Below are positions 12,584 to 34,902 of a stretch of DNA of 64,000 bases, in pieces. The notes under the pieces were generated by a model that was not told the origin of the DNA, did no database searches, and saw only the letters and a list, made by a program, of their open reading frames with translations. The translations under genes were made by a program, and so were the position numbers. Source of the stretch: Paraburkholderia phenazinium (lineage in GTDB: Bacteria; Pseudomonadota; Gammaproteobacteria; Burkholderiales; Burkholderiaceae); contig NZ_FSRM01000002.1 of NCBI RefSeq assembly GCF_900141745.1, positions 682,001 to 746,000 of the forward strand, given 5' to 3'. The first letter of the stretch is position 1. Each line of letters begins with the position of its first letter.

Positions 12584-12772
12584 TTACGCCATCGCGGCCT
12601 CAATGTGCTGCTTCATGCGTTCCAGCAGCGATGCGCCGGTCACCTGCGATCGTTCACAACGTTCGGCCAGCGCGTAGTCCAGTTCCGTGGCGATGGTGAC
12701 GGCTATTTGACCGCGCGCGCCCTCCTCTTTGGTGTCACTATCCCGGCCAAATTTGACACAACTGGGCGTAAC
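12584..12772 (-). pseudogene. Ribbon-helix-helix-like small protein, 5'-truncated remnant
   Basis: The frame reads KFGRDSDTKEEGARG, then IAVTIATELDYALAERCERS and ASLLERMKQHIEAAMA before TAA. A short beta-strand followed by two helices resembles a ribbon-helix-helix DNA-binding protein. No ATG, GTG or TTG precedes it in frame before the stop at 12773-12775. Its first part overlaps the 3' end of the PLD-protein gene in another frame. I infer that its 5' end was lost at an island junction, though a non-standard start cannot be excluded. Confidence 0.35.
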
Positions 12773-14208
12773 CTAACAAGGAAGTCTTTCGGCTCGAATC
12801 TCAAGTAGGCGGCGCGATAGCGAGCGACCGCCTGCCCATCAGAAACGTAGAAGCCGGAAAACTCTCGGGGAGTTATCGGCCGGCGCCGTTGCCCAAATGG
12901 CGGTTCATTGGAAAAAACCACATGCCCTTCGTCCCATTCCACCTCGAAAACTGATCGAACGTCGTTTTGAAGAAATTGAACCGAGAGCGGCCCCTGTCGC
13001 GAGAGCTTGTCAAAAATGGCCAGCGTCGGATCGTTCTCGCCAATGCGATCCGAAATGTAAATACTGATGTGTACTCCTTGCGCAAGGCATGAGCGGAGAC
13101 GCTTTATTACGTCACCATCAATCTTTGCCGCGGACGGATTCGTCGTGGTGATTGTTATCGAACGCGTCGCCTTTTCAAGCGCCTGAAAGAGGTAATACTC
13201 CATCTCATGGCAACGGACAGGGACAACGGGCAAGCGATCAAGCTCCTGTTCGAGCCCGTTAAGCTCGATCTCGTATTCAATCTTCTTTGCTAACAACGAG
13301 TCGACTCGCTCTTCCGCAAGGCGCGAGTTTACTCCACGTAGATTCAGCAACAGAATACTTCTACGCTGGACAAGACTTGCGACGTTCGGGCCTTGGCCGT
13401 TTCCACAAATCAGCTCGCGGTAGCGTTTTCGGACTGCCTGCACGCCTGGCTTGTTCGCCATCGCTCGATCGACCCCAATCAGCTTTGGCAGCCCAACCTT
13501 CGCGCAGGTGGCGGTAAGGTCGTTGTCGATTGAGCCGTTGATAGCGAGGCGGAACGTCTGCTCACCGTCGGGCCCGGCGAATATCAACGCCACAGACTGT
13601 CGGTATCTGCCAAAGGATTTGTGAATACCCGTTACACGGAGCACTTCGAAGCTGGAGGCCCCGAGATCACCAACGGAGCTACTGGCAGCCCGAAGCTTGT
13701 TAATGTCACCGACGTCGAGTTCTTCAGTCAGCGGCCTCGCAAATGCATTGGGTAACGGCGCCATCAGTCCATCTGGACCGGCTCGCTGTTTTGTATAGAC
13801 CAGCGTTCGGTCGAGCACGACGCGCTGGATTGGATCCCACAGCACATACATGCGTCGATCCGATGGGCTCGCTTCCCCGCCCTGCCGCAACAACTCCTTT
13901 CCGCGCCGTAGCAACAGATATTGGCCGAAGGCGTCCGTTCCAAGGTAGTCACCGTCACACAGACCGCGCAGCAACCGTCTGCCATACGCAAGGTCAACGC
14001 CAAGGAATTCGCATATATTTCCGTCCTCCACCAAACCCGCTTCGACTGCACGAAGGCAAAATTCTGTCGGTGCCGGAACTGGCCTGCGGTCAAGACCGAT
14101 AATATCTACAACGAGAAGTTGGACTGGCAAATGCAGGATGAAATAGTCGACCAGGGTATGCCCCGTCACTGAATCGAAACGCTTTGCAATTTCAGTTTGG
14201 TCTCTCAT
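12703..14208 (-). CDS. mkoB: PLD-fold protein, Mokosh type I-like second component (MkoB)
   Basis: A 501-residue protein whose last third has a phospholipase D-like fold: FQALEKATRSITITTTNPSA at 341-360, IDGDVIKRLRSCLAQGVHISIYI at 363-385, and a second-motif region GHVVFSNEPPF around His429. The usual H-x-K of active PLD nucleases reads H-V-V here, so catalysis is uncertain. The first 330 residues are not recognised. The start codon overlaps the stop of the kinase-helicase gene (ATGA, 14205-14208), which shows tight coupling. As I recall the published Mokosh type I system, it pairs a kinase/SF1-helicase protein with a PLD-family protein. The assignment rests on that architecture. Confidence 0.7.
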   Translation of the reverse strand: MRDQTEIAKRFDSVTGHTLVDYFILHLPVQLLVVDIIGLDRRPVPAPTEFCLRAVEAGLVEDGNICEFLGVDLAYGRRLLRGLCDGDYLGTDAFGQYLLLRRGKELLRQGGEASPSDRRMYVLWDPIQRVVLDRTLVYTKQRAGPDGLMAPLPNAFARPLTEELDVGDINKLRAASSSVGDLGASSFEVLRVTGIHKSFGRYRQSVALIFAGPDGEQTFRLAINGSIDNDLTATCAKVGLPKLIGVDRAMANKPGVQAVRKRYRELICGNGQGPNVASLVQRRSILLLNLRGVNSRLAEERVDSLLAKKIEYEIELNGLEQELDRLPVVPVRCHEMEYYLFQALEKATRSITITTTNPSAAKIDGDVIKRLRSCLAQGVHISIYISDRIGENDPTLAIFDKLSRQGPLSVQFLQNDVRSVFEVEWDEGHVVFSNEPPFGQRRRPITPREFSGFYVSDGQAVARYRAAYLRFEPKDFLVRLRPVVSNLAGIVTPKRRARAVK

Positions 14209-17200
14209 ATGTCCTTCAGCAGGCAGAAGTCCGGGTTCGCGCGAATGTAGTCGATGACCATCCGAAAATGGTTCTGTCCTTTGACGCGGTGACAGAAAGT
14301 CGCATCTCCGACAACTACCAGAGCGTCCCTCGCTCGCGACAACGCGACATTAAGGCGTTCCTTCTCACGTTGAAAACCAATTCTGTTTTCGTCGTTTGAG
14401 CGCGTGACGCTGTAGAGGCAGATATCCGCCTCTCTCCCCTGGAACGCATCGACGGTATTCACTTCCACGGTAAAACCGGCGTGAGGTCCTATCTGCTGCG
14501 AGATGTCGTCACGCAACCGCGCGACTTGAGCTGAATATGCTGCGATGACCGCCACCTCTATCGCCTTCTTGCTTTTTCGCGTTTGCCTGGATATCTCTTT
14601 CAATTGTTCAATGATTTCGTGCGCTTCGGCCACATTTTCGTACGTGCCCCCTGGTGCCTCAGTCTCCGCATGTTTCGGCATCTTGGATGTGGACAGCCAC
14701 GTTACTGCCATCGGATAGATTCGCGCTACCACCACATTTCGCTTATCGTCATCGCGTACGTTGACGAGTTTGTTGTCGTAAAAAACTTGACTGACCAATG
14801 CTCCGATTGTGCTGCACATGCGCCTCTGCTCCACCAACTCCTCGACACACTCTCTCGGGAGTCTGGACAGAAGGACGGATAAGAGGCTCTTCTTTGCATC
14901 GTCTGAAAAAGGAGATTCACCATTTTCGTTCAATGCTGACTCAATATATGGCGGCAACTGCTTGGGGTCACCAACCAGGATTGTTCGTCGACTTCGAGAC
15001 ATTGGGACAAGCGTCTCAGTTGCCGTCGCCTTGGATGCCTCGTCGACAACGCATAAATCGTACTCGTCCTGCTGGAAAGCGGGCGTGCTTCCCAACCCGA
15101 TGCACGTTCCCGCCACAATCCGCGCCTCGCGAAGGACAGCGCCATGAAAGGAGCGTTCAGAACCAAGCCGATTTAGCCAGTCCAGATGAAGCTTCATGAG
15201 CGGCAACAGATCTTTTCTGGCGCTATTTTCTGTAACAAGACCATCCAGCAACCCTTCGAGTTCGCTGTCGTCCGCCGTCCTGAAATCGACGCCAAAACCA
15301 TTGAGCCTGTCGAGACTATTGACCAATCGACCAAGTCTCGCGTCCAATGAATCAATGCTCGTTTGTAGTTCGTCCTCTTCGCCCAACGTATCCACCGTCT
15401 GGCGCAGAATCTCATGCGGGTCCGGAAGCTGTCCCTCCCCGAGTTGCTCCAACCGCCGGTCGTCGATCTTCAGTTTTCTGTCTCTGAGACTCTCTTGTCT
15501 CTCGTTGAGCGTCCGGAGCGCCTTCCGTGTTTCCAGGTAGCTGCGCCCCAATAGCTCGACCTTTACTTCGAACGCGTTTATGCCTTTTCCTTGAGCATAG
15601 GCTTCCATGAAACGCTCGGAACGTGCTTCGGCCTTCAGGCACCAGTCTTTGACTTTCCGCTCCAGCGTGAGGCGCTCTACAGACTTATTTACCTTGTGTG
15701 CATTCTCTGATCCAAATGACACGATACGCACCACTTCGTCCGCGAGCTTTTTCTCATCCAGTTTTGCAATGATATGGTCGAGTGCGACATGAGTCTGTGA
15801 CGACAGCAGGATGCGTCGGTCGGGATAACGTTTCAGATACGCGCTGATCAGCTCTGCAATCAAGGTCGTCTTACCTGTTCCCGGCGGACCGTTCACGACG
15901 AGTAGGCTGCTTACCTCCATTGCCTTGTCCAAAACCTGTCGCTTGTCCGAGCTCAGATGATCGGGAAACTGAAGGCCGGCCGGTTCAGGGGGTGTAGCAG
16001 TCTCCGGCTCGGACAGGACGGCACCGATCGTCGGGCTGACCGCTCTCCCCGCGCGTATATCTTCAAGCGCCGCACGTTGCTTCTGAAGCGACTTGCGCTC
16101 CGCCTCGAAGTTGGTCTGAAGCACTGCATTTGCGCGTGGAACGTCTCCTCTCTTTCCAGACCGCAGAAAGAGTGTTACCTGGTCAGCCTCCACATCAACC
16201 ACTGTAAAAATGACGGGCCTACCGCTGACCGTCTGCAATACCAGCGACGCACCGAGTTCCTCTCTTTCGAAATCACCCTCGATTGTTGCAATGAGAAATT
16301 CCTCTTCGTCGTCTATCCGACGAGCAAGGAATTCCTTTTGCTTGTACTTGTAGAGACGCTCCTTCTCGCGCAGAAAATCCGCCCAACAATCAAACCAGTA
16401 GTCACGCCTCTTCTGCTCCGCCTCATTAGCCCGCGCGTTGTCCACTACGTCTAGTCGGCTAAAGAACGTACGCAGCCCATCACGGGCCGTCTTGTATTCG
16501 CGAACCGCGTCAGCCCGGAAGGTAACTCCCGGCACCGTGGCGTATTGCTCGCGCAGTTCGCTTGCTCGATCAGGCGTGTGAATTGCCAATTCCTCGACCA
16601 GCAAGTCGTTATCCCGAGTCCTGCACCGAATCCGCAAAGTGGCGCCCACTATCCGGACAAATCCTACGTCCTGATCGTTGAAGGCAGACCAGTTGGAATT
16701 GAGGTCATCAACAATATAGGACGCACACTGTCTCTCGTCTAAATTCGAAAACTCGGCCTTTAGTGACGCAGTACTGGATGGTTGAAGGCACAGAAAGACG
16801 TCGATTGGAACTTGCGACTTGGACATCGCGGCCGCGTGGTAAGAATCGAGGTCTGCGAGAAGAACCGAGATAGCCTCTTGTCGAGCGTCCGGTGATTCAG
16901 ATAACGCCTTGCGCAAGATAGATTTCGGCGTCGACAGATCACGCAAACTTTCCAGTGCGAGACGCAAATCCTCCGCCGTATGAAATATTGTGCCGGCCAG
17001 ACAAGATGTGGCAATTGCCGCCCAGGAGTACAAATCCCTTTGGTCTGACCGATAACCGTCGTCTGCCTCGGGGGGCGTGTACGGGGGCGATCCCGTCTGG
17101 GAAAAGGTCAGGCCCAGTTGGGGCTGTGTGGTGTTGCGAGCGATGCCGAAATCCACGATCTTTGGTGTCCCGTCCTCGTCGAAGAGCACGTTCTGCGGTT

Positions 17201-17660
17201 TTAGGTCCCGGTGAGCCCAGTGCCGTTGGTGAGCATATGCCAGCGCTTGTAACAATGGCCGACCAATTTCTTCATAGAACTCGCTCCAGCTTGTCGGACC
17301 TTGTGCTTCGATGCGCTTTGTGAGATCACCGCCCGGAAGCCACTCGAGCACCAGATACGGGATGTTAGAAACGTTTCCGCTGTCGACGAGCCGAACAATG
17401 TTTGGATGCGAGAGATCATCGAGCGCTCGCCCCTCTCGCTCGACTGAGAGCGCCGCGCGCGCATAATCCGATCTGTTTAACGGCACCTTTATCGCCAGCT
17501 CTCGCTGGTCGGTTATCTGTGTTGCGCGAAAAACCGCTGACATGCCCCCGTCCGATCGGTCAGCAGAGATATCATATTTTTGATCGAGCACAATCCCGTG
17601 CCGGATCGGAAAGCTGTCGTCTGCGCGGGCGGCATGCTCGCTCTCGCTTCTCAGGTTCAT
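14205..17660 (-). CDS. mkoA: Ser/Thr kinase fused to SF1 (COG1112-type) helicase, Mokosh type I-like (MkoA)
   Basis: A 1151-residue fusion. Residues about 25-270 form a Hanks-type kinase: glycine loop at 35-45, Lys58 in LAIK, HRDLKPQN from His150, DFG at 170-172. Residues about 570-1150 form an SF1 DNA/RNA helicase: Walker A GPPGTGKTT near 590, Walker B VVDEASKAT near 868, GDPKQLPP, and late motifs VEVNTVDAFQGREADI and NVALSRARDALVVVG. The middle is coiled-coil-rich. GGAGA precedes the ATG. It is upstream of and overlaps the PLD-fold gene. This pairing matches Mokosh type I, an antiphage system thought to act on phage nucleic acid. Its base composition is visibly less GC-rich than the catabolic genes, a sign of transfer. 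Confidence 0.8.
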   Translation of the reverse strand: MNLRSESEHAARADDSFPIRHGIVLDQKYDISADRSDGGMSAVFRATQITDQRELAIKVPLNRSDYARAALSVEREGRALDDLSHPNIVRLVDSGNVSNIPYLVLEWLPGGDLTKRIEAQGPTSWSEFYEEIGRPLLQALAYAHQRHWAHRDLKPQNVLFDEDGTPKIVDFGIARNTTQPQLGLTFSQTGSPPYTPPEADDGYRSDQRDLYSWAAIATSCLAGTIFHTAEDLRLALESLRDLSTPKSILRKALSESPDARQEAISVLLADLDSYHAAAMSKSQVPIDVFLCLQPSSTASLKAEFSNLDERQCASYIVDDLNSNWSAFNDQDVGFVRIVGATLRIRCRTRDNDLLVEELAIHTPDRASELREQYATVPGVTFRADAVREYKTARDGLRTFFSRLDVVDNARANEAEQKRRDYWFDCWADFLREKERLYKYKQKEFLARRIDDEEEFLIATIEGDFEREELGASLVLQTVSGRPVIFTVVDVEADQVTLFLRSGKRGDVPRANAVLQTNFEAERKSLQKQRAALEDIRAGRAVSPTIGAVLSEPETATPPEPAGLQFPDHLSSDKRQVLDKAMEVSSLLVVNGPPGTGKTTLIAELISAYLKRYPDRRILLSSQTHVALDHIIAKLDEKKLADEVVRIVSFGSENAHKVNKSVERLTLERKVKDWCLKAEARSERFMEAYAQGKGINAFEVKVELLGRSYLETRKALRTLNERQESLRDRKLKIDDRRLEQLGEGQLPDPHEILRQTVDTLGEEDELQTSIDSLDARLGRLVNSLDRLNGFGVDFRTADDSELEGLLDGLVTENSARKDLLPLMKLHLDWLNRLGSERSFHGAVLREARIVAGTCIGLGSTPAFQQDEYDLCVVDEASKATATETLVPMSRSRRTILVGDPKQLPPYIESALNENGESPFSDDAKKSLLSVLLSRLPRECVEELVEQRRMCSTIGALVSQVFYDNKLVNVRDDDKRNVVVARIYPMAVTWLSTSKMPKHAETEAPGGTYENVAEAHEIIEQLKEISRQTRKSKKAIEVAVIAAYSAQVARLRDDISQQIGPHAGFTVEVNTVDAFQGREADICLYSVTRSNDENRIGFQREKERLNVALSRARDALVVVGDATFCHRVKGQNHFRMVIDYIRANPDFCLLKDI

Positions 17661-18082: not shown

Positions 18083-21000
18083 ATGTCCAATTCTGTCGCT
18101 GCCCCCATGCCAGTCGCCTTGTATAGCGATCTACCGATGACGCGACAGGCATATCGTGCATTTCGTGCACGGCTCATTGCGTCCGAGGCAGTTCAACGTC
18201 GGATCGAAAAGGCTTGGGCCAAGACCTCCTACATACATGGTTGCTGGGCTCGCCGGCCGCTCGGTCTCGCTTACGGGCGGCACGTGATTCAAGCATTTCG
18301 AGATCAGGCGCTCGACGTGCTCGAGACGCTCACCGACGACGCAATAGATGAAGCAACTGAGGATGCGGCCTGTGCCAGACGCGCGTTGCGCGTTCCGGAT
18401 AATGCGTTACCCGAACGCACGCGCGGGACGCGTACCGGATACGGGCTGCTCAGGGCACTGGCACCTCTCGCCTGGTGGCGCCGAGTTGCCGCACGTCTGC
18501 GACCGATTGGCACGCCAGAGGGCCGGCGGTTGGTGTTTGCGGCCTACGCTCGCCCTTCGTGGCGGGACCAGCCCCACTTCGATGAGGCTCTCGATTTTTT
18601 CCTGCGCCACTTTACGCTGCCCGACTCGGCGAAGGGGCTTATAGAAGTCGGCTGGATAAACGAGACGACCGTACGCAACGCATGGCGACTGGGACTGCGC
18701 TCGGCGGACGCGCTAACCTCATTTGCGGATGCATCGCGAGGTTTCCCGGCCGAAAAGCTAGCGGTCCTCATCGAGCTCGAAGTGATCCGGACCGTGGAAG
18801 AACTCACCTGGCTCGAGCAATGGCGCAGTGAGCGGGAGCACATTTCGGCCACGCCGGGTGTACATCGGCAGGCGAAGCGCTCGATTGCGCGCCTGCTCGA
18901 GCTCGGTGCCCCACGCAGAAGCATTCTTCGGTTACTCGATTTCTGGAATTCGTGTGCGCCGGAAGATCTGAACCAATCGTTGAGCGCGCTCGCTGCGCGC
19001 GGCTACGGCGACGGCGCACAGATATTCAAAGCGCTCGAACAAACACTTTGGCTTGCACCTAGCGCTCGTAACTGGGACTTCGTCATCGACGTCGTAGGTG
19101 CACGTGAGGTTCACCACATCGCTCTGTTTGACGAGTTTCTCCGATGCGATACGCTGCCCGATGCCGCGGTCATACGTGCAGTCCAGGTGCCTGGCAGCAA
19201 ATTCGAGGATCTCGCGCAGACGCAATCCTTTCTGCTAACCCTATGCGACCGCCGCGCCCAGCCGGCGCGCGTCATTGCACTACTACTGGCGGAGCCGCAT
19301 GCGTTGCGCATTGAGCAACTGGCGCACTGTCGCAGCTATGCGGTGCACCGCTCTGAGGATGAGCTCCAGCAGTTCCTTGCGACGCTTGCGCAACACGGCT
19401 TCGGCACCACTGTGGGCGTGCTCGCATTTGAGGAAGTCTACAAATCGTGGCTACAAACTTCGAAAGTCGGTCGACTTCTGGCGCTCTACCGGCGCCTGCG
19501 CGATGCCCCACCTGATCCGCAAGCCGCCGCCAAATGGGTGATCGCGGTTGGTGAAAAATACCTCGATTCTCTCGAGTACCTCACGGAGGCGTTCCAGGTA
19601 ACTGATCGCGGAGCGTTTCAGCAGATCCGGCCCTTCGCACGCATCGCGAAGAACGTGCTGGCATGGGCCATCGAAGGGCGCGGGCATGCAACTGTTGAAG
19701 CACTTCGTACCTGGCGCCGAAGCGCACGTGGCATCGAGCAGGTAGATAACTATGAATGGCGAGAGCCCGTAACGCAGATCCTGCTCGAGGACGCTGCCGC
19801 ACGCGGCGATTTCATCCACGTGAACCGCAACTGGAGGGCGTTCTGGAAAGCGCGTCGGAACGAAAGCGAGGCCATCGTGGGAAGACCGGCCGTCGGAGCC
19901 GACAAGATGGCATTCGAGGTCTACTGGGCGCGGGTCGCGGAGCTCGAACCGCTTCTTGAAGAACGAGCGCTGCCGCACTTGCGGCATCAACTGGAGGCAA
20001 CAGGCGGATTTGTGGCGGCCAGCCTCATTCGCGCCGCGTGGCATGATGCGCGCGCGTATGAACAGGGGCTTGCGACGTTTACTAGCGAAGTGAAGGCTCT
20101 ATTAGATGGGCGCGGACCGAACACAGCGGATATTTCCGAGCTGCAGGCCGATGCGATCTCGGCCGTCTACGGCATCGACTTCGAGCCTCAAGACACGTAT
20201 TGGAGCAAGGTGGTGGCGCTTGAGACACATCTTGCCGGGCTGACATTGCGGCCGTACACAATGCACTTCGCTCGCCAACGCATCGAGATAAAGGGGAAGC
20301 GCCAGATTGACAGTCAAGGCGTTGTCGCCTTGCGCGAGGCGTTCGATTATGGGCGGCGTTTCCGCCAGATGATCGGCATAGACGTCGGACTCGCGTCAGA
20401 AGGTCTGTCGCCCAGGCAGATGCGTGAGAATCAACGTGCAGCGAGTCCCCAGACGCTGCACCGCCATCTGGGGGTACTGCTAGGTGTGTTGCCCGAGTCG
20501 ATGACTGAAGCCCTCAGTATTGAAATCGAGGCATTTGGCCTGGAGACGCACGATCCCGAACGGCGCCACGAGGCCGCCACGCACATCTCGAACTTCTTCG
20601 AAGTCGAGCTGGGAGACACCCTTCCCCAAGGTGTTGGGGCACTCAAGGCGCAGCTCGGCGAATTCGGCGCAGCCACGCTTGCCCGGCGCCTTGTCGACGC
20701 AACCTCGCAAGAGCCCGATTCAGACGGCCTTGTGGTAGCGTTCGAACGAACGGCAAATCGCGTGCGTGAACTGTACGGCCGGTGGATTCATCGCCAGTTG
20801 GATGTATTTACGGGTGGGGCTGTCGCTGCGGGCGGCGATATGTATCGCGCAGTCGTCTCGAAGTACGGCGCAGCCTACTACTCGAAGGTTGCGACCAAGC
20901 TTTGCAGCGATGACAATGAGCGCATGTGGCAGGAGCGCCGGCAGTCGCATCTGCTTGTCTTTGATCTAGCCAGAAAACGCCTTGCGGCGATGGCCATGCT

Positions 21001-21469
21001 TTACGTCGAGCGTGTCGCGGCGATCGACCCAGTGCGCCCCACACTCGTCATGCGCGCCATCAATACGCTCGTAGGCGAAGATTCCGGCCACGATCCAGAC
21101 TCGGTCGTCCGCGCGTTTTTTTCGGTGGGCGAGCAAATCGCGAAAGACAACCGTTTCGCCGCGTTTGCCATACCGACCAATACCGGTCAGCACCTGCTTT
21201 CAAACCGCAATGAAATCGTCGCAGTCATTGCGCGGCGATGCAACGAGGAGAAAGCGGACCATTCGGCACCCGATGGCGACTCGCCACAGCAGCTCCACCA
21301 AGCGCGGGTGGTGAGACTGCCTTCCGATGCGCCTTTCTATGGTTATGAACATGGCCGCGCGCCAGTCCACATACTCTACGTGCTTTGGTCGCCCTCGTGC
21401 GAGACCGCCGTACACTCAGCCGGAGAGGTATCCCGCAGGCCCGACGCAACGGACACGCGCACTCTTTAA
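18083..21469 (+). CDS. Large protein of unknown function (1128 residues)
   Basis: I do not recognise the family. The product is soluble, with no signal peptide or membrane segments, and appears almost wholly alpha-helical with many Arg/Glu/Ala-rich helices. No Walker motif, nuclease motif or protease triad was seen. The last 60 residues are low in predicted structure. Codon use is GC-rich, unlike the defence genes on either side. The start at 18083 (MSNSVAAPM) is the first ATG. Alternatives are at residues 9 and 19. It is divergent from the Mokosh-like pair and is followed after 25 bases by a small frameshifted gene. Position within a defence-carrying island suggests a role in conflict or mobility, but this is only association. 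Confidence 0.75.
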   Translation: MSNSVAAPMPVALYSDLPMTRQAYRAFRARLIASEAVQRRIEKAWAKTSYIHGCWARRPLGLAYGRHVIQAFRDQALDVLETLTDDAIDEATEDAACARRALRVPDNALPERTRGTRTGYGLLRALAPLAWWRRVAARLRPIGTPEGRRLVFAAYARPSWRDQPHFDEALDFFLRHFTLPDSAKGLIEVGWINETTVRNAWRLGLRSADALTSFADASRGFPAEKLAVLIELEVIRTVEELTWLEQWRSEREHISATPGVHRQAKRSIARLLELGAPRRSILRLLDFWNSCAPEDLNQSLSALAARGYGDGAQIFKALEQTLWLAPSARNWDFVIDVVGAREVHHIALFDEFLRCDTLPDAAVIRAVQVPGSKFEDLAQTQSFLLTLCDRRAQPARVIALLLAEPHALRIEQLAHCRSYAVHRSEDELQQFLATLAQHGFGTTVGVLAFEEVYKSWLQTSKVGRLLALYRRLRDAPPDPQAAAKWVIAVGEKYLDSLEYLTEAFQVTDRGAFQQIRPFARIAKNVLAWAIEGRGHATVEALRTWRRSARGIEQVDNYEWREPVTQILLEDAAARGDFIHVNRNWRAFWKARRNESEAIVGRPAVGADKMAFEVYWARVAELEPLLEERALPHLRHQLEATGGFVAASLIRAAWHDARAYEQGLATFTSEVKALLDGRGPNTADISELQADAISAVYGIDFEPQDTYWSKVVALETHLAGLTLRPYTMHFARQRIEIKGKRQIDSQGVVALREAFDYGRRFRQMIGIDVGLASEGLSPRQMRENQRAASPQTLHRHLGVLLGVLPESMTEALSIEIEAFGLETHDPERRHEAATHISNFFEVELGDTLPQGVGALKAQLGEFGAATLARRLVDATSQEPDSDGLVVAFERTANRVRELYGRWIHRQLDVFTGGAVAAGGDMYRAVVSKYGAAYYSKVATKLCSDDNERMWQERRQSHLLVFDLARKRLAAMAMLYVERVAAIDPVRPTLVMRAINTLVGEDSGHDPDSVVRAFFSVGEQIAKDNRFAAFAIPTNTGQHLLSNRNEIVAVIARRCNEEKADHSAPDGDSPQQLHQARVVRLPSDAPFYGYEHGRAPVHILYVLWSPSCETAVHSAGEVSRRPDATDTRTL

Positions 21470-21486: not shown

Positions 21487-21494
21487 GCAAACTC

Positions 21495-25300: not shown

Positions 25301-26906
25301 TCCGAGAAAACGACGAGACTTCCTGGACTGGATACCCTGCTGCCTTAGGTCACCCGCAGCCAGCATCTACCTAGATCAGTTACGCAACCAGTATGGCGAT
25401 TCCGAGCGCGAACCGCGGATAGAGAGAAGTGGCGGTTGGGTGTCGCCACCTTTTGAATACAGACGCTTCGTCGAGCTCTCGCCACCCGACGTCGTTCGTC
25501 TCTTGCGCCAATACAGTCCGGGCCATTGTCGAGAAAACTTTCTGCCTGCAGGAGGACCGGACGCTGTCGCCGCGCAATTGTCAGAGGCTGCCTCTAGATA
25601 TCCGGTACGCTTCCTGTCGTTGCTCACCGAACACTGGTCAAAGATTGACGATCGATTTGGCAGAAGCATCCTTACCGGCATCGCTCGGCATCTCGGTTAC
25701 CGCTCTGGTAGCGTCGTGAGCACTGGCGAGTGGAAGGCGGAAGAGGAACCGCCCCTAACTCTTGTGGTGAAGCTTGCGCTGGACGAACTCGACCGCCATC
25801 CTGCTTCGTGGACTGGGACTCGGGCTGCCGCCGAGGTGCTTGAGGCATCTTCACATGTCATCGAAGACGACGTTGAACTCGGGAGATTCACGTTTCATTT
25901 GGTTGGTGTTTCCCTGTCCCCGGACCCGGAGTCAGAGGGAAATGAGCTGGCGATAACGGCATCAAACTCTACGAGAGGCGTTGCTGCCCAAGCTGCAACG
26001 ATAGCTGCAGTGCGATGGGAAGCAAAAGGAAAGCTTATTCCCTCATTGCTCGATACAACTCTCCAGCGCCTCGCCGGCGACGCTAATGGCGGAGTTCGTT
26101 TTTCCATACTTCGCTATCTTCCGCGCTTGCAGCAGACCAACCCTGCTTTGGGCTGGCGCCTCTTCGCGAAGGCTACCGACGGTGCTGATGTGGCGACATG
26201 GTCTGAGGCCGAACCGTGCCTCTATTCTGCCTATCATCTGGATTTTGAGAGAGTATCCCCTTATCTCGTGCGCTTGTATCAGGCGCGAGCACTCGAGTCG
26301 TGGGCGCATATTGCATGTCTGGCGACCCTTTCCGGACACATTTCGACGACTGATATTAAGGCCTCCCTTGAGGGCGTCGAGGAGGAATCGGCATGGATCG
26401 GTACCTCTCGCGTATTTGCCACCAACGCCGGACTTAACGAGCATCAGGCAGCTTGTTTTGACATGCTTGAGTGGGTGTTGCTGCATGCCCCGCCTTCAAT
26501 GAATGTAGCCAGCGAGGTCGACCATCGGTTGTTCGCAGCAGAATCGGGTATCCATCATGTTCCTGAACCACTGCTGCGAACTGTGTTTGCGTTCAGAAGT
26601 CGGATCGACCAGGTGCAACGGGCAGCACCCACGTCTTTCCTTCAATGGCTGGAAGCAAATGCAGTTGATGCGCCGGACCAGACACTATCGGCTATCGAGA
26701 TAATGCTCAACGGGTCGCAATGGTCCGAGGAAGCAACGCTATTCTTTGCACCATCAATTTTCAGCGCTCTGTTTCAGGAAGCAGAGGAACGGGAAGACTC
26801 TGATGGAGGTGATTTCCTGCATCGCGTCGTCGCGGTTCAGGACGTCCTGCTTCAGTTCGCTGGGAATACGCTATATAACTGGCTCAAGGACGCTGAACGG
26901 GCATGA
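22344..26906 (+). CDS. Avs-like STAND NTPase with N-terminal Cap4/PD-(D/E)xK-type nuclease
   Basis: A 1520-residue protein. Residues about 8-210 resemble the Cap4 (DUF4297-type) nuclease: SSRGDSYEILIAAQW, acidic VDD at 51-53 and QCKK from Gln67, a Q-x-K variant of the PD-(D/E)xK core. A STAND-type NTPase follows, with Walker A DSPGAGKT at 296-303 and Walker B VVVVLDSIDVL near 364. The last 800 residues are helical, as in target-sensing arms of Avs proteins. The start at 22344 is set by GAGGT upstream. The longer frame from 22254 adds a cysteine-rich segment without a ribosome site. Avs proteins sense phage proteins and then cut DNA. The subtype cannot be assigned by eye. Base composition is lower in GC than the flanks. 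Confidence 0.75.
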   Translation: MSLASVRSSRGDSYEILIAAQWAVRMLSGMDIESVGIDSTELDVSGEFVTVDDVVVTFRERTKTYCQCKKNQTDFDSWKVSDLADDLKKAANQLTRDPRGTVVFYSTVPFGQIQKLREHSIAFSDSEAFQKSLSTNKSLATVANTLTTLWSEWIDTGNRTLFDLLRRISFEGTSSQAVLADQILRDLRMHVTGTENVYDALIAHLNRLKSRTTFDAATITSKPVLTRDALLQLIVKAGAVHTPPRAEADLLNEFKRVSAVGRAWRRDIGSQRIPRTSLQTLLEHIGNGVKRVLVSDSPGAGKTCLLLNLVDELEKQSYRSVIFVQGREFANAFSDGERCALGLPASVLDSVARMAEYRPVVVVLDSIDVLSLAREHSCLNYFLTLVDRLPTIPNVTVIVACRNFDLKYDRRLGHRQWDMTISVGPLDWRTEVVPLLEEWNVNADDLGDRLPVILTNPRMLAIFGDLVSRGRIPVVSTAQELTEQYLETCVSEVPALGEPALILLEALGQQMLTRRRLSIAPASANIPQQMKASLLSSEIIVENSSRSIEFGHQTLLDVLAVRAAIRSGSSLIGFVRAHAATPFLRPTIRSFLFYLRSTDPATFRSQVRAIIDAEDIAFHLKRLVAESFAEVIPTDDDWRLISHLDSRHPKIFQFFFFATRAVEWFDFFRQHWWSTLVAKKNVEGVFLFTRHLDAWVSTSSRDVLQIFLELLQFNWLTRDEAAGIISGSMHRWSDWTAPHLENVLSALIESASTIRIPLGHSLATWVGATGKGDELLWRFITGDITSEDVHYRRIGSKLRCGPDRLGPNRTFLEERMRSSEALLNLAIESIDCWTRRELEFNDRSGFRIGFLHETSYSQSHARYDMRHIDGGTVLLGAIESACLSHAATDTPWWRENVNMLLHSVDGGLRYIAIRAITKAPETNIVSIAGVLRDQTMLEYGGDYEMGRLLNSSFHLLGPEVTDSVLDQIMTLFEGYYQESGTIPDWIPRKRRDFLDWIPCCLRSPAASIYLDQLRNQYGDSEREPRIERSGGWVSPPFEYRRFVELSPPDVVRLLRQYSPGHCRENFLPAGGPDAVAAQLSEAASRYPVRFLSLLTEHWSKIDDRFGRSILTGIARHLGYRSGSVVSTGEWKAEEEPPLTLVVKLALDELDRHPASWTGTRAAAEVLEASSHVIEDDVELGRFTFHLVGVSLSPDPESEGNELAITASNSTRGVAAQAATIAAVRWEAKGKLIPSLLDTTLQRLAGDANGGVRFSILRYLPRLQQTNPALGWRLFAKATDGADVATWSEAEPCLYSAYHLDFERVSPYLVRLYQARALESWAHIACLATLSGHISTTDIKASLEGVEEESAWIGTSRVFATNAGLNEHQAACFDMLEWVLLHAPPSMNVASEVDHRLFAAESGIHHVPEPLLRTVFAFRSRIDQVQRAAPTSFLQWLEANAVDAPDQTLSAIEIMLNGSQWSEEATLFFAPSIFSALFQEAEEREDSDGGDFLHRVVAVQDVLLQFAGNTLYNWLKDAERA

Positions 26907-26968: not shown

Positions 26969-28303
26969 CTACAGATACTCTCGAGCGTAGCGTCGTATCC
27001 CGACATACAACGTCTGATTGACAGCACTTACCGCTTTTGCTGAGCCCAAAGCTTTCTTAAGTTGCTGCCATTCTTCAATCATCGCGTTTTTCGCTTCCGT
27101 TGACAGCACGCCATTCCCGGGCGGATCGTCTTGCTTACAAAGCCGTGTCACCGTGCCTGGCGCGATTTCTAGCTCGGTCGCGATCGCAAGCCTGGTCCGC
27201 CCTGCGTCCCGCAATCTTTTCACCTCTTCGGCAAGAAAACCGTACCTAGTCGGTTTCACATTTTGCGGAACTCCGTTTACGACCCCTTTGTAGGTGAAAG
27301 CCGCCCCGCAACTGCACTTTGCCAAATACCCTCTTACCGAACGCTGTCGCAAGGATACGGGATGAAACGCACCATGCATCGACTGGAAGTTGGGACAGAA
27401 CGGCCACGCATTGGCGCAAGCCTCGGTAGGCAGACTGGAGAGAAACTCAGCGAGCAAAACCGTTCTATAGACACGTCCAATCGGTAGTGTTTTTCTCAGG
27501 GCCGTCGAGAGCCAGCTCTGATCGCTTCGCGGCATCGTTTCGAGATGTTGCAGGAAGGATTCTCCGAAATGCTGCATGAGCGAGTGCTTAAGGTCCCGCC
27601 CGCGAATCGATCCAAACCCGAGGGCGAAGCCGCCGGCGCGAGCGCTTTGCCTGAAGTGATTTACCAGATTCTCGGGGACGACGGAGACCCGAGAATGAAG
27701 CAACCACGCCGACATCTGGGCCACGCGTAAGCAAGCCTCGCTTTGCGAGGAAGTCAGGTCAAGCCTAACCTCCTTACCAAAGCCGACGACCGACTCCGGC
27801 GTTGGCCACGGTAGCTTCTTCCAAATAGCCTGGTGGTCAACTTCAACCAGCCATTGCGCATGTCTGGGACATATCAACACGCCAGGAAGTAGGTGCTCAC
27901 GACGCCAGTAGGGCGGCCGTCCCTCGGCGAGGTCGGAAGCGCGACACGCATCACAGTAGCGAAGCGCACCAAGTAGGCCCGCCTTTTTTTGAGATCGATG
28001 CGAGCCACGCTCGCGCGTCTGTTTGATGCAGTCGATCGCTGATTCTGCGGGGAGCAGGGAAGCGTAATAGGGATAAAGCGTCATCCGTTCGGCTATCTCG
28101 TCGGCGTCCCACGGCCAGACGTGCTGGCACTCAATGGCCACATGCTCAAGGCTATACGCCAAACCGAGGGGCAACGACGGGAAATATCCGAAGATCGTTC
28201 GCAGCGTTCCTGTGAAAACTGACACGCGCATGTCGTGGAGGTAACGAGCGATCACCCCGAAGAGAGGCTCGTCCTCGTAAGGTAGGTCAAGATCGACCGC
28301 CAT
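26969..28303 (-). CDS. tniQ: TniQ/TnsD-family target-selection protein 2
   Basis: A 444-residue TniQ-family protein, the class that guides TnsABC-type transposases to a target. It starts LPYEDEPLFGVIARYLHDM, as TniQ proteins do, and has the zinc-finger residues YCDACRASDL and LICPRHAQWL (C-x2-C and C-x2-H). A C-terminal helix-turn-helix is suggested by RLAIATELEIAPGTVTRL. It is the last gene of the tnsABC-tniQ-tniQ series and ends 62 bases from the convergent Avs-like gene. It differs strongly from the other TniQ, so the two probably recognise different targets or act together. Confidence 0.85.
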   Translation of the reverse strand: MAVDLDLPYEDEPLFGVIARYLHDMRVSVFTGTLRTIFGYFPSLPLGLAYSLEHVAIECQHVWPWDADEIAERMTLYPYYASLLPAESAIDCIKQTRERGSHRSQKKAGLLGALRYCDACRASDLAEGRPPYWRREHLLPGVLICPRHAQWLVEVDHQAIWKKLPWPTPESVVGFGKEVRLDLTSSQSEACLRVAQMSAWLLHSRVSVVPENLVNHFRQSARAGGFALGFGSIRGRDLKHSLMQHFGESFLQHLETMPRSDQSWLSTALRKTLPIGRVYRTVLLAEFLSSLPTEACANAWPFCPNFQSMHGAFHPVSLRQRSVRGYLAKCSCGAAFTYKGVVNGVPQNVKPTRYGFLAEEVKRLRDAGRTRLAIATELEIAPGTVTRLCKQDDPPGNGVLSTEAKNAMIEEWQQLKKALGSAKAVSAVNQTLYVGIRRYAREYL

Positions 28304-28491: not shown

Positions 28492-29865
28492 TCACAGCCC
28501 CCGGTCAGCAGTTGAAACGCCGCCTAACTCCTCCGGCGCATATCGTCGCAGAGCTTTCCAGAGCCCCGGTTCGGCACGGGACGCGATGCCAATACTTCCC
28601 GCGCTCGCGATCGTCTGGCGCCATTTTTCGACCATCGCATGTACTGACGTGTGACGATTCGGCGTCACATCCGCAGAATAGACGCGAGCCATCCTGCGAG
28701 CCGTACTCTCGGCGATCCTCAAATCCCTTGCGATCTCCGCTATGGATTGCCCGAAAAAATAGCGTCGCTGTGCTTCCCGAATATAATCGGGACCATAAAC
28801 TGTCGGGACGACACCCGCCGGAACGCCTTGCATGACCTCACTATAGGTGAACGAAAAGCCGCATCGGCACCGGGCATAGTGGCGGCCTTCATGCGCTTCC
28901 CGGATCTCTACTCGATGATTGGGTCCGTGCGGAGCGAACATGCTTGGGCAATATGGCCACGACGACTGCTCATGGCCTGTTCCCAATGCTGCTCCAAATA
29001 TTCCGAGCAGAATATTAGGCAACGCACATGTCGCCGTCTGGTAACGCCTCAGTCTGCCGATGATCCAGTTCTGCGCGGTGGTCGGGAGAAGCCCCACGAA
29101 GCGCAGGTATTCCGGACCATAGAACGAAGCGAATGCGCTTGTCAGACTGCGCGCTGCAAGCTGGTCTCGACCATGTGCGAATCCACTGCTGTGAGCAGCC
29201 TTCCAGCAGAACCGGAGCATTGACTCGGGGTCGACGCTCCTGCGTGCCTCCAGTAGCCACTGCGCGGCCCGTGCGACCTGGTGAACGTTGAAACGCTGCT
29301 CCTCAGTAAGCGACAGGCCGAGAATTTCACCTGAGGAGAGTGCATCTTCGATCGTAGGCCACGGCGTCGACGAACACGATCCATATCGCAGCGCCCTCAG
29401 CCAGCAATTGTGTGTCGGGCACACGAGAACGCCCGGAACCTGATGGACCCGTCGCCAGTGCCGAGGACGCCCTCGCGACAGGTCCTCGTCAACGCAGGCG
29501 TCGCAGCAACGAACTATCTTGACCTGCTGGATAAGCTTAAGCATGAAGGTCGGCAAGGTACCTACACGGCGGGTTTCGATCTCCGCATACAGGCGGCCAA
29601 GCTCGGACGGCGTCGCGAAGGTCGCGTAGAAAGGAAAGAGCGTGGTGGATTCGATCAGTTCGCGCGAAGACATCCCCCAGACAGCACGCACCTGTTCCGC
29701 GACAAACCCGAGGTTATACGCCAGTGCTGGCGAAAACTGCGCCCGATAGCCGAACATTTGATGCAGAAACCGATTCCAGTTCCCCACGCGCATCTCACGC
29801 GCATAGCGTGCGACCGCGCCGAAGAGCGGCTCGTCATCCTCTCGGGGAAACAGGTCAGTCGCCAT
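28492..29865 (-). CDS. tniQ: TniQ/TnsD-family target-selection protein 1
   Basis: A 457-residue TniQ-family protein. The N-terminus DDEPLFGAVARYAREMRVGN is the family signature, the zinc finger is RCCDACVDEDL with LVCPTHNCWL, and IAEIARDLRIAESTARRMARV gives a C-terminal helix-turn-helix. The ATG lies three bases after the tnsC stop, so the two are coupled, and the ribosome site is inside the end of tnsC. A gap of 188 bases with no clear gene separates it from the second TniQ gene. Confidence 0.87.
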   Translation of the reverse strand: MATDLFPREDDEPLFGAVARYAREMRVGNWNRFLHQMFGYRAQFSPALAYNLGFVAEQVRAVWGMSSRELIESTTLFPFYATFATPSELGRLYAEIETRRVGTLPTFMLKLIQQVKIVRCCDACVDEDLSRGRPRHWRRVHQVPGVLVCPTHNCWLRALRYGSCSSTPWPTIEDALSSGEILGLSLTEEQRFNVHQVARAAQWLLEARRSVDPESMLRFCWKAAHSSGFAHGRDQLAARSLTSAFASFYGPEYLRFVGLLPTTAQNWIIGRLRRYQTATCALPNILLGIFGAALGTGHEQSSWPYCPSMFAPHGPNHRVEIREAHEGRHYARCRCGFSFTYSEVMQGVPAGVVPTVYGPDYIREAQRRYFFGQSIAEIARDLRIAESTARRMARVYSADVTPNRHTSVHAMVEKWRQTIASAGSIGIASRAEPGLWKALRRYAPEELGGVSTADRGL

Positions 29866-29868
29866 GCT

Positions 29869-31596: not shown

Positions 31597-31609
31597 GATG
31601 ACGCTCCAT

Positions 31610-34072
31610 TCAATGCTGATGTGGGGGGTGATCCGTGATCTTTGAGAGCCTGGCAGCTTCGAGTTCGTCACGAAGCGAGCCGCGATGTTTCGGCCGTGCT
31701 GAAGGCTGACTGTCTACGGGGGGCGGTGCAGTGTCGGCTGGCGCGCCAGCCGTCGTCTTCCGCGCAATGGATGCGTTGACAACCTGCTCCCGCTTGCGCG
31801 CGTCCCTCATATTGCTGTCAACGGGGTGCTTCAGACCCGCCTCCCTTAGCAGAGCCTTCTGCATTTTTTTCTCGGCGGCCGCATCAACACGCGCATTGTT
31901 CATCTGCATGATGCGGGTGGTCTCGCCTGCTGCGAGTTCAAGCCGGTTGTTTTCATGATTGCGGTCCCGGTAGACCTGCCACTCGACCCAGGACAGGTCC
32001 TCGACTGGCGCCACGCGGTTGGTGGGCGCCCATATTCCCCGCTGCTGGAATCCTTGTGCCGTGATCCAGATGCACTGAAGGGCGCCTGGCTGGATAAGGA
32101 TCGGGACATGCCTGTCCTTCCTGTTAGTCGACTCAAGGTAGGCGCGCTCGGCCGCTGGCGAGGCGAAATAGGCACCATTCCAGCGAACGCCGCGGTCGGT
32201 CAGCAAGCCGGTTGCCTGGTGCCATGTTGCAAGCTGGATCTCTTCGACCGTGTAACTGGTCAGCAAGCCCGAGCGGTTCTCAATTCCCCAGTTCCACCGG
32301 TTAAGCGGCGTATCGGAGCGCCCCGCCCCGACCATCTCTGGGGGAGGCTGGTCGTCGGAGATGGGCGTACGGTGGTACACATGGATCGCCCGGAGTAGCT
32401 GCAGAATAAAACTTCTAAGCGTATGCACGGCGTCCCACGGATAGTGGCGGGCTCCCCGCGTGTGCCAGTCCCGCTCAACGACACCAAACATCTGACGCTG
32501 ATAGATCACCGTCAGGCAGCCGAAGCGCCGCTCAACCACTGCACGCCACGTGGGTGTGTAGGGCCGGCTGTTCTCGACGCTCATCCCGTAAGCGGCGAGT
32601 CTGTTCCAAGGCTCAGTCGCCATGAACTCGGCGCCACGATCAAGATGAAATGCCGTGGGCATGTAGACGCAGGGCCAGTCAGCTGCCGAAATAAAGAAGC
32701 CATAACGCGCGCACAACTGGTCTTTGGGCGTGACGATGCTCTCTAACGCAAGCGCCGCAGCCTCATAGCTCGCCTTCTCGAATCCGACCCAGAATCCCAC
32801 GATCATCCGACTAAACAGATCAACACACAGATAGACGGTCGGTCGTCCCACCACCACTTTCCGGTCCAGCATGGAGACGAGATAGACGTCGGCAACCGTC
32901 GCATCGAGCAGATAGACATCGCCCGGTCCCTGGATATGCTGCGCGGCATGCCCGCGTTTTGGCATCAGAGCTCCGCTACCCTGCTCAATGCGCAGGCTCT
33001 CCCGAGCCAAATAAGCGCCGGGCTCGGTCTGGCAAAAGTAGCTGAACTGCCGAACCGTAATGACGTTCTCGTCTTTCAGCTCCAGTTCGGTGAGGTGGCC
33101 CTCCCGGTCACGGACTTCGCGCTTGCGACGCGTCCGCAGGTTGAGTACATCGACGACGTTCCGATAGCTCGGCCTGGACCGCCTTCCGCGACGCGTCTTG
33201 CGACTGGTTTTTGCGATATGTGCCCGTCCCGCCTCAGCGACGCGCTTGACACTGCCTGCACCGAGCCTGCTGCCACCGGCTGTGGTCGCACCGGATGTGT
33301 CAGGGTCCTCGTCCGGATGATCTGCGTCCAGCACGACGGCTGCTTCGACGTCGGCTGGGCCGAGTTCAGCCAGCCACTCGGCTTCCTTGTTGGTAAGGTA
33401 CAGATCGAGCCCCTGCCACAGAATCCGGGTCAGGGTTTCGGAGGGAAGCATCCGGACGATCAGCACACCGTTCTTCGGTGGTCGTCCCGGCATCGTGCTG
33501 TACTGTCGATACACCCGCTGCCTGGTACCGGTCGGGCGGAAGTTATCTCCGCCGCGTGGACGGCCAGACGCAGGATAGTGACTACTCACCGCCTCACGCG
33601 TCATACCGCGCTGGAAATAGCGTCGCAGTTTTTCCCTAATCGTATTCTCGCAGACACCCCATTTCGCACACGCTTCATCGATCAGTCCTTGCCGGCTCGT
33701 CCGGCTCAGAAGTTGCCGGTAACGCGGGCGCGCGTCGTCACCGGTTGGCCTGACCAGAGCGGATATCTGCTTCCAGTTGTCAGCCGACTGTCGCTTATGG
33801 CCCTCGAGCGGACGGACCGTCGCCTCCACCATACTGAACGGATCCTCGAGAACCTGGACGAAGCGTCCCTCTCCCCGATAGCGGGGATCCGTCACTCTTC
33901 TCAGGTCGGCCGTGTCGCGTTTGATAAAACGGAGGTGACCTTCGATCGGGCAAAGATACGTATAAGGCTGTCCATCGCCGGAATAGACGACGCGAAGGAT
34001 CCGGTCGTCGTCTACATCACGCCATAGCGTGCGCACAGCAAAGGGAATATTGCACTTTACGCGGACAGGCAT
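31610..34072 (-). CDS. tnsB: TnsB-like DDE transposase
   Basis: An 820-residue transposase that cuts the 3' ends of the element and joins them to the target. The retroviral-integrase-fold core is visible: first Asp in YLLDATVADVYLV (about 390) with YLCVDLFSRMIVGFWVGF, second Asp in AFHLDRGAEF (about 477) and Glu in VVERRFG (about 513). A Mu-type C-terminal domain and a basic tail follow. The start at 34072 (MPVRVKCN) has AGGGGGC upstream and lies 17 bases after the tnsA stop. The extended frame to 34279 overlaps tnsA and is not protein-like. Confidence 0.92.
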   Translation of the reverse strand: MPVRVKCNIPFAVRTLWRDVDDDRILRVVYSGDGQPYTYLCPIEGHLRFIKRDTADLRRVTDPRYRGEGRFVQVLEDPFSMVEATVRPLEGHKRQSADNWKQISALVRPTGDDARPRYRQLLSRTSRQGLIDEACAKWGVCENTIREKLRRYFQRGMTREAVSSHYPASGRPRGGDNFRPTGTRQRVYRQYSTMPGRPPKNGVLIVRMLPSETLTRILWQGLDLYLTNKEAEWLAELGPADVEAAVVLDADHPDEDPDTSGATTAGGSRLGAGSVKRVAEAGRAHIAKTSRKTRRGRRSRPSYRNVVDVLNLRTRRKREVRDREGHLTELELKDENVITVRQFSYFCQTEPGAYLARESLRIEQGSGALMPKRGHAAQHIQGPGDVYLLDATVADVYLVSMLDRKVVVGRPTVYLCVDLFSRMIVGFWVGFEKASYEAAALALESIVTPKDQLCARYGFFISAADWPCVYMPTAFHLDRGAEFMATEPWNRLAAYGMSVENSRPYTPTWRAVVERRFGCLTVIYQRQMFGVVERDWHTRGARHYPWDAVHTLRSFILQLLRAIHVYHRTPISDDQPPPEMVGAGRSDTPLNRWNWGIENRSGLLTSYTVEEIQLATWHQATGLLTDRGVRWNGAYFASPAAERAYLESTNRKDRHVPILIQPGALQCIWITAQGFQQRGIWAPTNRVAPVEDLSWVEWQVYRDRNHENNRLELAAGETTRIMQMNNARVDAAAEKKMQKALLREAGLKHPVDSNMRDARKREQVVNASIARKTTAGAPADTAPPPVDSQPSARPKHRGSLRDELEAARLSKITDHPPHQH

Positions 34073-34089
34073 AAGCGGCCCCCTATGGC

Positions 34090-34902
34090 TTAGGCTGCTG
34101 TCTCGCGTGGGACGGCGACGAAACTCGACGGCGACTGATCCCAGAGTGCGGGAGCACGCAGGTTGGTCAACAGTTGACCGGTTGCAAGTAGCTGCCGGAA
34201 GGCACGCATCGATGCCCCCGGTACGAGTCCGCGCTCTCGCGTAGCCGCGCTGCACGCGTCGCCAGCTGACATGTGGCACGACCTCGCCAGTTCAGCCAGC
34301 ACTATCCGTTGCGCATGGCGCTCCGCCTCACTCACACCAACACGTTCAATGTATTCCCGCGCTGGATAGAGCCAGGCCAGGTTTCTGGCCCATACACTGT
34401 TAAGACCGTGGCTGAGGACGATGAATAGACGCACACCTCGCTCTTCCCAGTACTGGGACAATATGGCCAGTTCAATTTCCGTGTCGGGCCCGGGATCAGA
34501 CACGGAACGCCGCACCTTGACAGCTTCGTCCGCCAGGCGTCCTTCCACGTCGACCGTCACGACGAGATCGGTCAGCAAAACCCTCGGATTGCCATACCCG
34601 CCCGGATGCTTCAGTCCCATACGCGCAGCGATCAGAACAGTCCTGTCTAGCTCGGCGGGGACGCGCTCGCGGATATCCATCACGCCCTCACGAAAATATT
34701 CGTGCAGGAACGTCGCGTATTCGGTGTCGGCCGCAAGATGGAATTGACGCTGACCGAAACGCCAGCATGCAACGCGATGGACTCGGCCCATCTTCGGCAG
34801 TTCCCGCACCACAAGCGGCGGTGAATATGCCATCCCCCGCAGTTGTGCGCATGCCTGGCGGCAGATAAGACGCTCACGTTGGCGGATTGATTGACCGAAC
34901 AT
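34090..34902 (-). CDS. tnsA: TnsA-like endonuclease
   Basis: A 270-residue restriction-like endonuclease that cuts the 5' ends of the transposon so that it moves by cut-and-paste. Active-site residues line up well with Tn7 TnsA: Glu61 (ADTEYATF), Asp112 (LLTDLVVTVDV) and Lys129 (DEAVKVRRS), against E63, D114 and K132 as recalled for Tn7. The C-terminal part would contact TnsC. GGAGC lies eight bases before the ATG. It is the first gene of the tnsABC-tniQ-tniQ operon, so one transposon end should lie upstream of 34902. Confidence 0.9.
   Translation of the reverse strand: MFGQSIRQRERLICRQACAQLRGMAYSPPLVVRELPKMGRVHRVACWRFGQRQFHLAADTEYATFLHEYFREGVMDIRERVPAELDRTVLIAARMGLKHPGGYGNPRVLLTDLVVTVDVEGRLADEAVKVRRSVSDPGPDTEIELAILSQYWEERGVRLFIVLSHGLNSVWARNLAWLYPAREYIERVGVSEAERHAQRIVLAELARSCHMSAGDACSAATRERGLVPGASMRAFRQLLATGQLLTNLRAPALWDQSPSSFVAVPRETAA

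Follow-up and report, generated by a model that had tools for sequence, protein, structure and literature searches.

Sequence comparison suggests a decaying TnsA, and a tyrosine recombinase that would finish transposition instead, in a Tn7-like element of Paraburkholderia phenazinium

How does a Tn7-like element complete its transposition when TnsA, its DNA-cutting subunit, appears to be losing its active site? The question is raised by a 64,000-nucleotide stretch of the Paraburkholderia phenazinium genome (the window; G000:C2:682001-746000, from a source genome of 8.3 Mb in two contigs), in which a tns operon lies beside genes for a KfrA_N DNA-binding protein (KfrA) and a tyrosine recombinase (TyrR) and shares a block with the genes of two or more probable antiphage systems. 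Our comparisons suggest that TnsA is in decay and that the final step of transposition falls to the recombinase. We tentatively read the locus, with confidence a little short of even, as a Tn7-like element with replicative transposition whose cointegrates are resolved by TyrR and KfrA. The gene content is ordinary for Tn7-like defence islands, and two-TniQ Tn7-like elements with defence cargo are already known; what sets this element apart as a variant is an altered TnsA together with the recombinase pair and the site of that pair. Genomes, contigs and loci are designated below by G, C and L numbers, respectively.

The tns operon, its altered TnsA and the adjoining recombinase

The operon tnsA-tnsB-tnsC-tniQ1-tniQ2 occupies 26,969-34,902 on the minus strand. 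It and the divergent genes upstream of tnsA comprise the following features (aa, amino acids; ORF, open reading frame):

26969..28303, minus strand: tniQ/tnsD no. 2, 444 aa
28492..29865, minus strand: tniQ/tnsD no. 1, 457 aa
29869..31671, minus strand: tnsC, AAA_22/TniB, Walker A GLSGTGKT and Walker B LLIIDE
31610..34279, minus strand: tnsB, match to 7pik (Tn7 TnsB), E 8e-50
34090..34902, minus strand: tnsA, 270 aa, C-terminal domain E 1e-6, E/D/R at the E63/D114/K132 positions
36506..36533, no strand assigned: dif-like core site upstream of kfrA, GATAATGAAACTTAGC at 36512-36527 with one mismatch, 19.6 bits, in the training set of the position weight matrix (PWM)
36583..37458, plus strand: kfrA, KfrA_N DNA-binding protein
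37468..39003, plus strand: TyrR, 511 aa
39389..39835, plus strand: 148-aa ORF, also conserved alongside KfrA-TyrR in G016 and G072

The TnsA/TnsB/TnsC/TniQ core of Tn7-like elements is present in the window, and profile and structure matches confirmed the tnsA, tnsB, tnsC and two tniQ genes that a preliminary description had placed here; its inventory was right in the genes it named and had overlooked both the kfrA-TyrR module and the alteration of TnsA. TnsB carries D, D and E aligned with Tn7 TnsB (7pik) at what we take to be the positions of the catalytic triad. The two TniQ proteins are 34% identical to each other, and both are matched by the TniQ and the TnsD profiles. Cas effectors, the mark of CRISPR-associated transposons (CASTs), had been reported absent, and a PADLOC scan of nine island proteins found none, CRISPR arrays not having been searched for; no TnsE was seen among the island proteins scanned. 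At E<=1e-60 (best 2 or fewer candidates per genome), the only genome of 399 at the order level with a TnsB relative was the window's own, every match among 834 plasmid records had less than 60% identity, and a related-locus scan gave 2 loci.

Alignment of TnsA to Tn7 TnsA (1f1z; E 1e-39 with a six-sequence profile) places E, D and R at E63, D114 and K132, which we take to be the catalytic positions, and the triad of a cut-and-paste Tn7 is incomplete in the window given the change of K132 to R. We tabulated the same positions for the best TnsB hit per genome with a TnsA sequence, to which G146 and G154 were added via the recombinase search. Omitted were G021, which gave no usable alignment; L031-L036, where TnsA had no hit; a pair of weak, partial TnsA-like matches in G090 and G068; and additional TnsB hits from genomes already in the table. 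The triad was degenerate in 12 elements (window, G146, G016, G154, G072, G069, G089, G095, G106, G094, G042 and G068) and intact in 10 (G090, G037, G055, G013, G050, G112, G019, G115, G114 and G010), while three (G041, G020 and G056) had the D and K with the E position uncovered. The recombinase family was present in the genomes of all 12 degenerate elements and in 1 of the 13 others (G090, on another contig; Fisher p 2.7e-6, with kinship ignored), and it lay within ~130 kb of the tns genes on the same contig in 11/12 and 0/13, respectively. Leaving out G146 and G154 gave 10/10 versus 1/13 (p 1e-5), and leaving out the three partial rows as well gave p 1.2e-4, kinship again being ignored in both. 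Five degenerate elements sit next to TyrR, namely those of the window, G146, G016, G154 and G072.

R332, K359, H442, R445, H469 and Y478, which we take to be the tyrosine recombinase catalytic set, are all present in TyrR, which was aligned to XerD (1a0p), and are invariant among four relatives. kfrA and TyrR are co-directional, upstream of and divergent from tnsA, and form with the 148-aa ORF one block (36,583-39,835) common to G016 and G072. A search of 144 genus genomes (best 10 or fewer candidates per genome) gave at least 34 full-length TyrR members, from 468 bits up, of which 32 loci were examined (G064:C6 and G145:C34 were left out). Genes of the tns type lay within ~3 kb of TyrR in 10/32, a raw count with no null. 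The arrangement recurs: in seven of these ten the recombinase is divergent from tnsA or tnsAB (window, G016:C124, G072, G154:C2, G146, the sister element described below and its G027 copy), and in three (G018, G155 and G049) it is convergent with tniQ. The other 22 loci had no tns match within ~3 kb with the queries used. At G072:C2:3.51-3.61 Mb, a Tn7-like operon lies between two KfrA-TyrR modules.

A second Tn7-like element of the same genome establishes that the pair can belong to such a transposon. This sister element (C2:1,614,216-1,810,245; 196,030 bp) has ends TGACAAATTAAGCAAAAGTTGATC and TGACAAACAAAGCGTAAGTTGATC, matching at 20/24 positions and accompanied by subterminal repeats, and contains both tniQ genes, tnsC, tnsAB, kfrA and tyrR; the KfrA-TyrR pair is part of the transposon here. 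Its right end sits at the 3' terminus of an egtB-like ORF (FGE-sulfatase/DinB domains), ~150 bp past tniQ2, and its last three bases form the called stop codon of that ORF. A second species, G027, carries a nearly identical copy: over a 198-kb alignment, ~2 kb of flank included, identity is 99.5%, compared with ~82-90% in the flanks. The 5-bp duplications are CGCGC/CGCGC in G000 and CACGC/CACGC in G027, and because they differ, the two insertions may be separate events.

Linkage of a recombinase to tns genes, one feature of replicative Tn7-like elements with a resolvase, is found in the window, and absence of tnsA, another, is not; here tnsA is present and altered. The accessible portions of PMC8649781, and likewise of PMC11406308, predict replicative transposition for elements that have lost tnsA and acquired a resolvase of the serine or tyrosine type, and state that Tn7-like elements lacking TnsA usually have such a resolvase; a TnsA D90A mutation turns a Tn7-like CAST to cointegrates according to the part of PMC8188705 available. 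As far as those portions extend, this literature expects resolvases where tnsA is gone, not where it is retained and decaying, and we found in PMC8649781 and PMC11406308 no degenerate TnsA retained beside a recombinase, which is not proof of absence.

A dif-like core site and the proposed route of transposition

A conserved site accompanies the module. An imperfect palindrome, GATAA-N6-TTATC, occurs at kfrA with at most one mismatch in 31 of 32 loci scanned (the 32 examined TyrR loci minus G027 plus the split module of G031), compared with 36 of 1382 background windows. Twenty-seven copies are exact with a 6-bp spacer, one is exact with 8 bp and three have one mismatch, while the G031 copy departs at three positions; the palindrome lies just inside the aligned ORF start in L005 and L128. 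Scored on 30 of the 32 sites, the two arms show dyad covariation (0.194, compared with a mean of 0.122 for shuffles and no more than 0.077 for slid versions).

The window contains a second strong copy, at the far side of the island:

12439..12466, no strand assigned: dif-like core site on the left, with GATAA-N6-TTATC matched exactly at 12445-12460, PWM 18.7 bits, outside the training set

In the 464 kb round the window, PWM matches of 11 bits or more were found at 36,506, 12,439, 195,333 (15.0 bits) and -73,965 (11.1 bits); there were none in 430 kb of other loci, and shuffled windows gave 0.25 per 64 kb. The 12,439 site falls within the left boundary set by synteny (a 344-bp boundary), and the tns genes lie between it and 36,506 together with genes for a STAND protein, an 1128-aa protein and a Mokosh-like pair. 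Given its position at the island's left edge, we regard 12,439 as a candidate site for the recombinase. In the stretches scanned of related loci, one core site each was seen in G146, G154 and G016, and four were seen in the 100 kb of G072; one of the G072 matches is in a short extra stretch within a flank common to G106 and G094. Among loci with intact TnsA, only G090 and G055 have enough upstream DNA for the comparison, and neither has a core site there.

We propose that the locus is a Tn7-like element, or a remnant of one, in which the endonuclease site of TnsA is partly lost, so that transposition would be expected to run via a replicative cointegrate. TnsB and TnsC would carry out the transposition, aimed by one or both of the TnsD-sized TniQ proteins, and with 5' cutting lost, KfrA and TyrR would act on the dif-like core site between tnsA and kfrA to resolve the cointegrate, by analogy with TnpS and TnpT in Tn4651. 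The two core sites would bracket the tns genes and the cargo, where antiphage roles would fall to MkoA/MkoB, to the STAND protein and, probably, to the 1128-aa protein. A broader version is less probable in our view: a Paraburkholderia-type lineage that has kept a non-cutting TnsA, switched to replicative transposition, resolves cointegrates with KfrA and TyrR at dif-like sites in cis or in trans, and gains and loses whole defence islands via the same sites. If true, the element would represent an intermediate step from cut-and-paste to copy-and-paste Tn7-like transposition, with TnsA retained but losing its active site as a resolvase is acquired, and it would offer a short, testable recombination site and tie the replicative route to the spread of defence islands.

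Each component has a known counterpart, and the statements here on published systems reflect the accessible portions of the papers named. As in Tn7 (TnsABCDE) and dual-TniQ Tn7-like elements (PMC10293859), the window has TnsA, TnsB, TnsC and two TniQ/TnsD proteins in one operon with other genes on the tniQ side; Faure 2023 (PMC10293859) counts 998 loci with two tniQ/tnsD genes and 50 with more. It differs from these systems in that both TniQ proteins exceed 440 aa, R replaces TnsA K132 and a divergent kfrA-tyrR pair lies beside tnsA. Tn5053 and the clade 2-3 Tn7-like elements with a resolvase (Benler 2021, PMC8649781) likewise combine a site-specific recombinase with transposition genes and are expected to pass through cointegrates, but those branches lack tnsA, whereas the window keeps an altered tnsA and its recombinase is a KfrA-TyrR pair. 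The TnpS-TnpT-rst system of Tn4651 and TnXax1 (Tn3 family), for which TnpS, TnpT and their core site have been described (PMC4619425), also joins a tyrosine recombinase to an accessory DNA-binding protein and an inverted-repeat core site, and window TyrR has the residues predicted for an active recombinase of this kind. That site, however, lies between its two genes, while kfrA and tyrR are co-directional with the site upstream of kfrA; the window transposase, moreover, is TnsB. The tyrosine-recombinase fold is linked to Tn7-like biology in TnsF and Tsy of Tn6022 as well (PMC10293859), but TnsF, a zinc-finger target selector, has no catalytic site, whereas window TyrR has all six residues.

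Weighing the replicative reading against its alternatives

Several observations weigh against the replicative reading. Window TnsA is changed at one catalytic position only, K to R, and the sister TnsAB fusion keeps E, D and K (alignment to 9bw1) despite the adjacent KfrA-TyrR, a clear exception to the pairing of degenerate TnsA with the recombinase; the TnsAB fusions of G018, G155 and G049 are without the D and K present in the sister. The TnsB tree (n = 25), in which G016, G055 and G090 have long branches, reduces the association to 3 independent contrasts, ~2.9 of them in the expected direction (p 0.25). The G146 and G154 rows entered through the recombinase search, the G042 recombinase is split by stops, and that of G068 lies 2.9 Mb from the tns genes and was not counted as linked. 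Two of five covariation measures (both-side-change pairs and pair types) did not exceed shuffles. A one-mismatch match to the plain pattern also occurs at 60,699, and 3 of 100 shuffles reach three matches. Further 12-30-bit sites off kfrA were found in 6 of the 26 loci L125-L150, those of L138 and L149 within tnsAB coding sequence, which makes 12,439 unusual but not unique. The 6-bp spacers of the two window sites differ (GTAAAG and TGAAAC), no core site was present in the 4.7-8.4 kb upstream of tnsA in G094, G095, G089 and G042, and the scans recovered no TnsB ends for the window element.

The core site could also be a KfrA operator. If it is that only, and no crossover site, one step of the proposal falls, a view compatible with several of the readings and one we consider rather unlikely. 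The palindrome stands at the start of kfrA in 31/32 loci, and a separate KfrA_N gene on the chromosome is accompanied by an array of another motif. The form of the site, ATAA-N6-TTAT with invariant inner arms and a variable 6-bp spacer, nevertheless resembles the dif sites of XerC/D, and strong copies occur away from kfrA, at 12,439 and 1.3 kb upstream of tnsA in the related G106 and G068, which have no adjacent recombinase or kfrA.

The locus might instead be an ordinary cut-and-paste Tn7-like defence island, in which a TnsA with E, D and R still cuts, the recombinase is an unrelated neighbour and the ends have diverged too far to be recognised; we judge this unlikely. Window TnsA does retain E and D, the sister element retains the triad beside the same recombinase family, and dual-TniQ loci with cargo genes are common in Tn7-like elements as far as the accessible parts of PMC10293859 and PMC8649781 show. 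Yet in seven loci the recombinase pair stands beside the tns genes in one and the same orientation, in the sister element it lies between the mapped ends, and degenerate TnsA and the recombinase occur together in 12/12.

It is improbable, in our assessment, that TyrR itself mobilises the island, with a circle of tns and defence genes integrated between 12,439 and 36,506 and the Tns proteins as passengers or relics. The two strong core sites do bracket tns and cargo, no TnsB ends were found, and the MarR flanks of relatives (L057-L059) are without such a site. Most tyrosine recombinases do not tolerate differing spacers, however, and those of the two sites are unlike; in addition, no second site was seen in the stretches scanned of G146, G154 and G016, and the recombinase genes lie outside the bracket. 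The notion that TniQ hunts res sites and targets the one upstream of kfrA, the recombinase being target and not part, would account for tns operons recurring beside the core site at varied distances and has a precedent in the Tn5053 family (PMC11406308, in the part available), but is very improbable given that both sister ends are located, neither beside kfrA, with KfrA-TyrR internal and the insertion at the egtB-like 3' end.

Cargo genes and the limits of the island

The remaining features of the island are as follows:

12703..14208, minus strand: mkoB-like, 501 aa, without HxKx4D
14205..17660, minus strand: mkoA, 1151 aa, Ser/Thr kinase and SF1-type helicase, PADLOC E 8e-197
18083..21469, plus strand: 1128-aa protein, function unassigned, rare family
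22344..26906, plus strand: STAND/AAA ATPase, 1520-1550 aa, QxK near the N-terminus, relative of PDB 9n00
35090..35917, minus strand: weak rve-type transposase ORF fragment, E 0.0056, below the curated cut-off

The defence genes are probably cargo of the Tn7-like element. The STAND protein, a putative nuclease described earlier as Avs-like, matches the solved STAND/AAA structures 9n00, 9n01 and 9yix along its whole length (9n00 family, E 1.4e-275), consistent with that description; no paper for these codes was found in the literature searched from 2024 on. Its start is more likely at 22,344 than at 22,254 because most listed homologues are of ~1520 aa. Homologues at E<=1e-40 occur in 4 of the 144 genus genomes, the source genome included (best 3 or fewer candidates per genome). 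That of G090, 67% identical, lies ~34 kb beyond tniQ on the cargo side, and G090 TnsB groups with window TnsB (tree support 95/98, long branches). In G029, the homologue is in two pieces on contigs C28 and C54 (L225, L226); GajA/GajB-like genes adjoin the piece on C54, and the first of the ORFs upstream of the piece on C28 resembles a tyrosine recombinase by eye.

For the Mokosh-like pair, the strong match is to MkoA, the kinase-helicase of Mokosh type I, which is present in the window, whereas the MkoB match is partial (E 3e-18, profile positions 3-383 of 610) and HxKx4D, presumably the PLD-type motif expected in type I MkoB, was not found. The gene for the 1128-residue protein was confirmed, and its description as a protein of no recognised kind holds at E<=0.001 against Pfam, PADLOC and NCBIfam. 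The protein database lists nine relatives besides itself, the named ones from Burkholderia ambifaria and Paraburkholderia graminis, and three reach E<=1e-20 in the other 143 genus genomes (best 5 or fewer candidates per genome). Its AlphaFold model is poor (pLDDT 58). We infer an antiphage cargo role for the STAND protein and MkoA/MkoB, and a probable one for the 1128-aa protein.

The island extends beyond the 12703..34902 of the preliminary description. On the left, G029 remains collinear, at 79-83% DNA identity, as far as the MarR stop at 12,359; on the right, homology with G016 and G072 ends at ~39,835, and DNA common to many species resumes at 41,518. The guanine-cytosine fraction is 0.65-0.66 at 4-12 kb but 0.55-0.58 at 12-32 kb, and the defence and tns genes sit in the same low block. 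The idea of a mobile defence island is thus favoured by the shared block, the two bracketing recombinase-type sites and the G090 STAND gene near tniQ, and finds no backing in TnsB ends or an empty site. No empty site could be recovered, since relatives do not keep the right-flank genes in collinear order; in G029, the flanking genes sit on different contigs, and the G106/G094 pair gave no clean element ends.

Neither TnsB repeats nor inverted ends in 12.3-12.8, 34.9-36.6 and 39-41.6 kb were convincing. Scans for terminal inverted repeats with a 5-bp target duplication over the window and 200 kb on each side, which assumed ends starting TG and were run without a shuffled control, gave many weak pairs (best 19/24), none prominent, and no duplication for the window element, so that the ends looked for by the preliminary description were not recovered. 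In a repeat-cluster scan, the sister ends scored 66 and 25, the top ranks in their 30- and 25-kb regions, and the best score within 12.4-36.5 kb was 14; clusters above 14 were numerous over the 464 kb, and those inspected resembled tandem, coding or other dispersed repeats.

Clusters of GGTGAGnnnTTyCrGGA were considered as TnsB sites and rejected, as they are dispersed round a chromosomal 401-aa KfrA_N gene (C2:869,543-870,748) and absent from the 320-kb sister region. About a dozen copies fall in 1 kb, at +189.1 to +190.1 kb from the window (G000:C2 ~871,100-872,200), adjoining that gene, with dispersed copies to ~270 kb and one at 12,506; the array is possibly centromere-like or KfrA-binding.

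Scans of the window for tRNA genes and Rfam families found nothing. A short minus-strand frame at 12,588-12,728, with no clear start and overlapping the mkoB end, resembles the C-terminal part of a replication regulator (RepB-RCR_reg, E 0.05). Farther right, a 7.4-kb block (56,158-63,526) has 87-88% DNA identity to four other species, G067, G072, G049 and G110.

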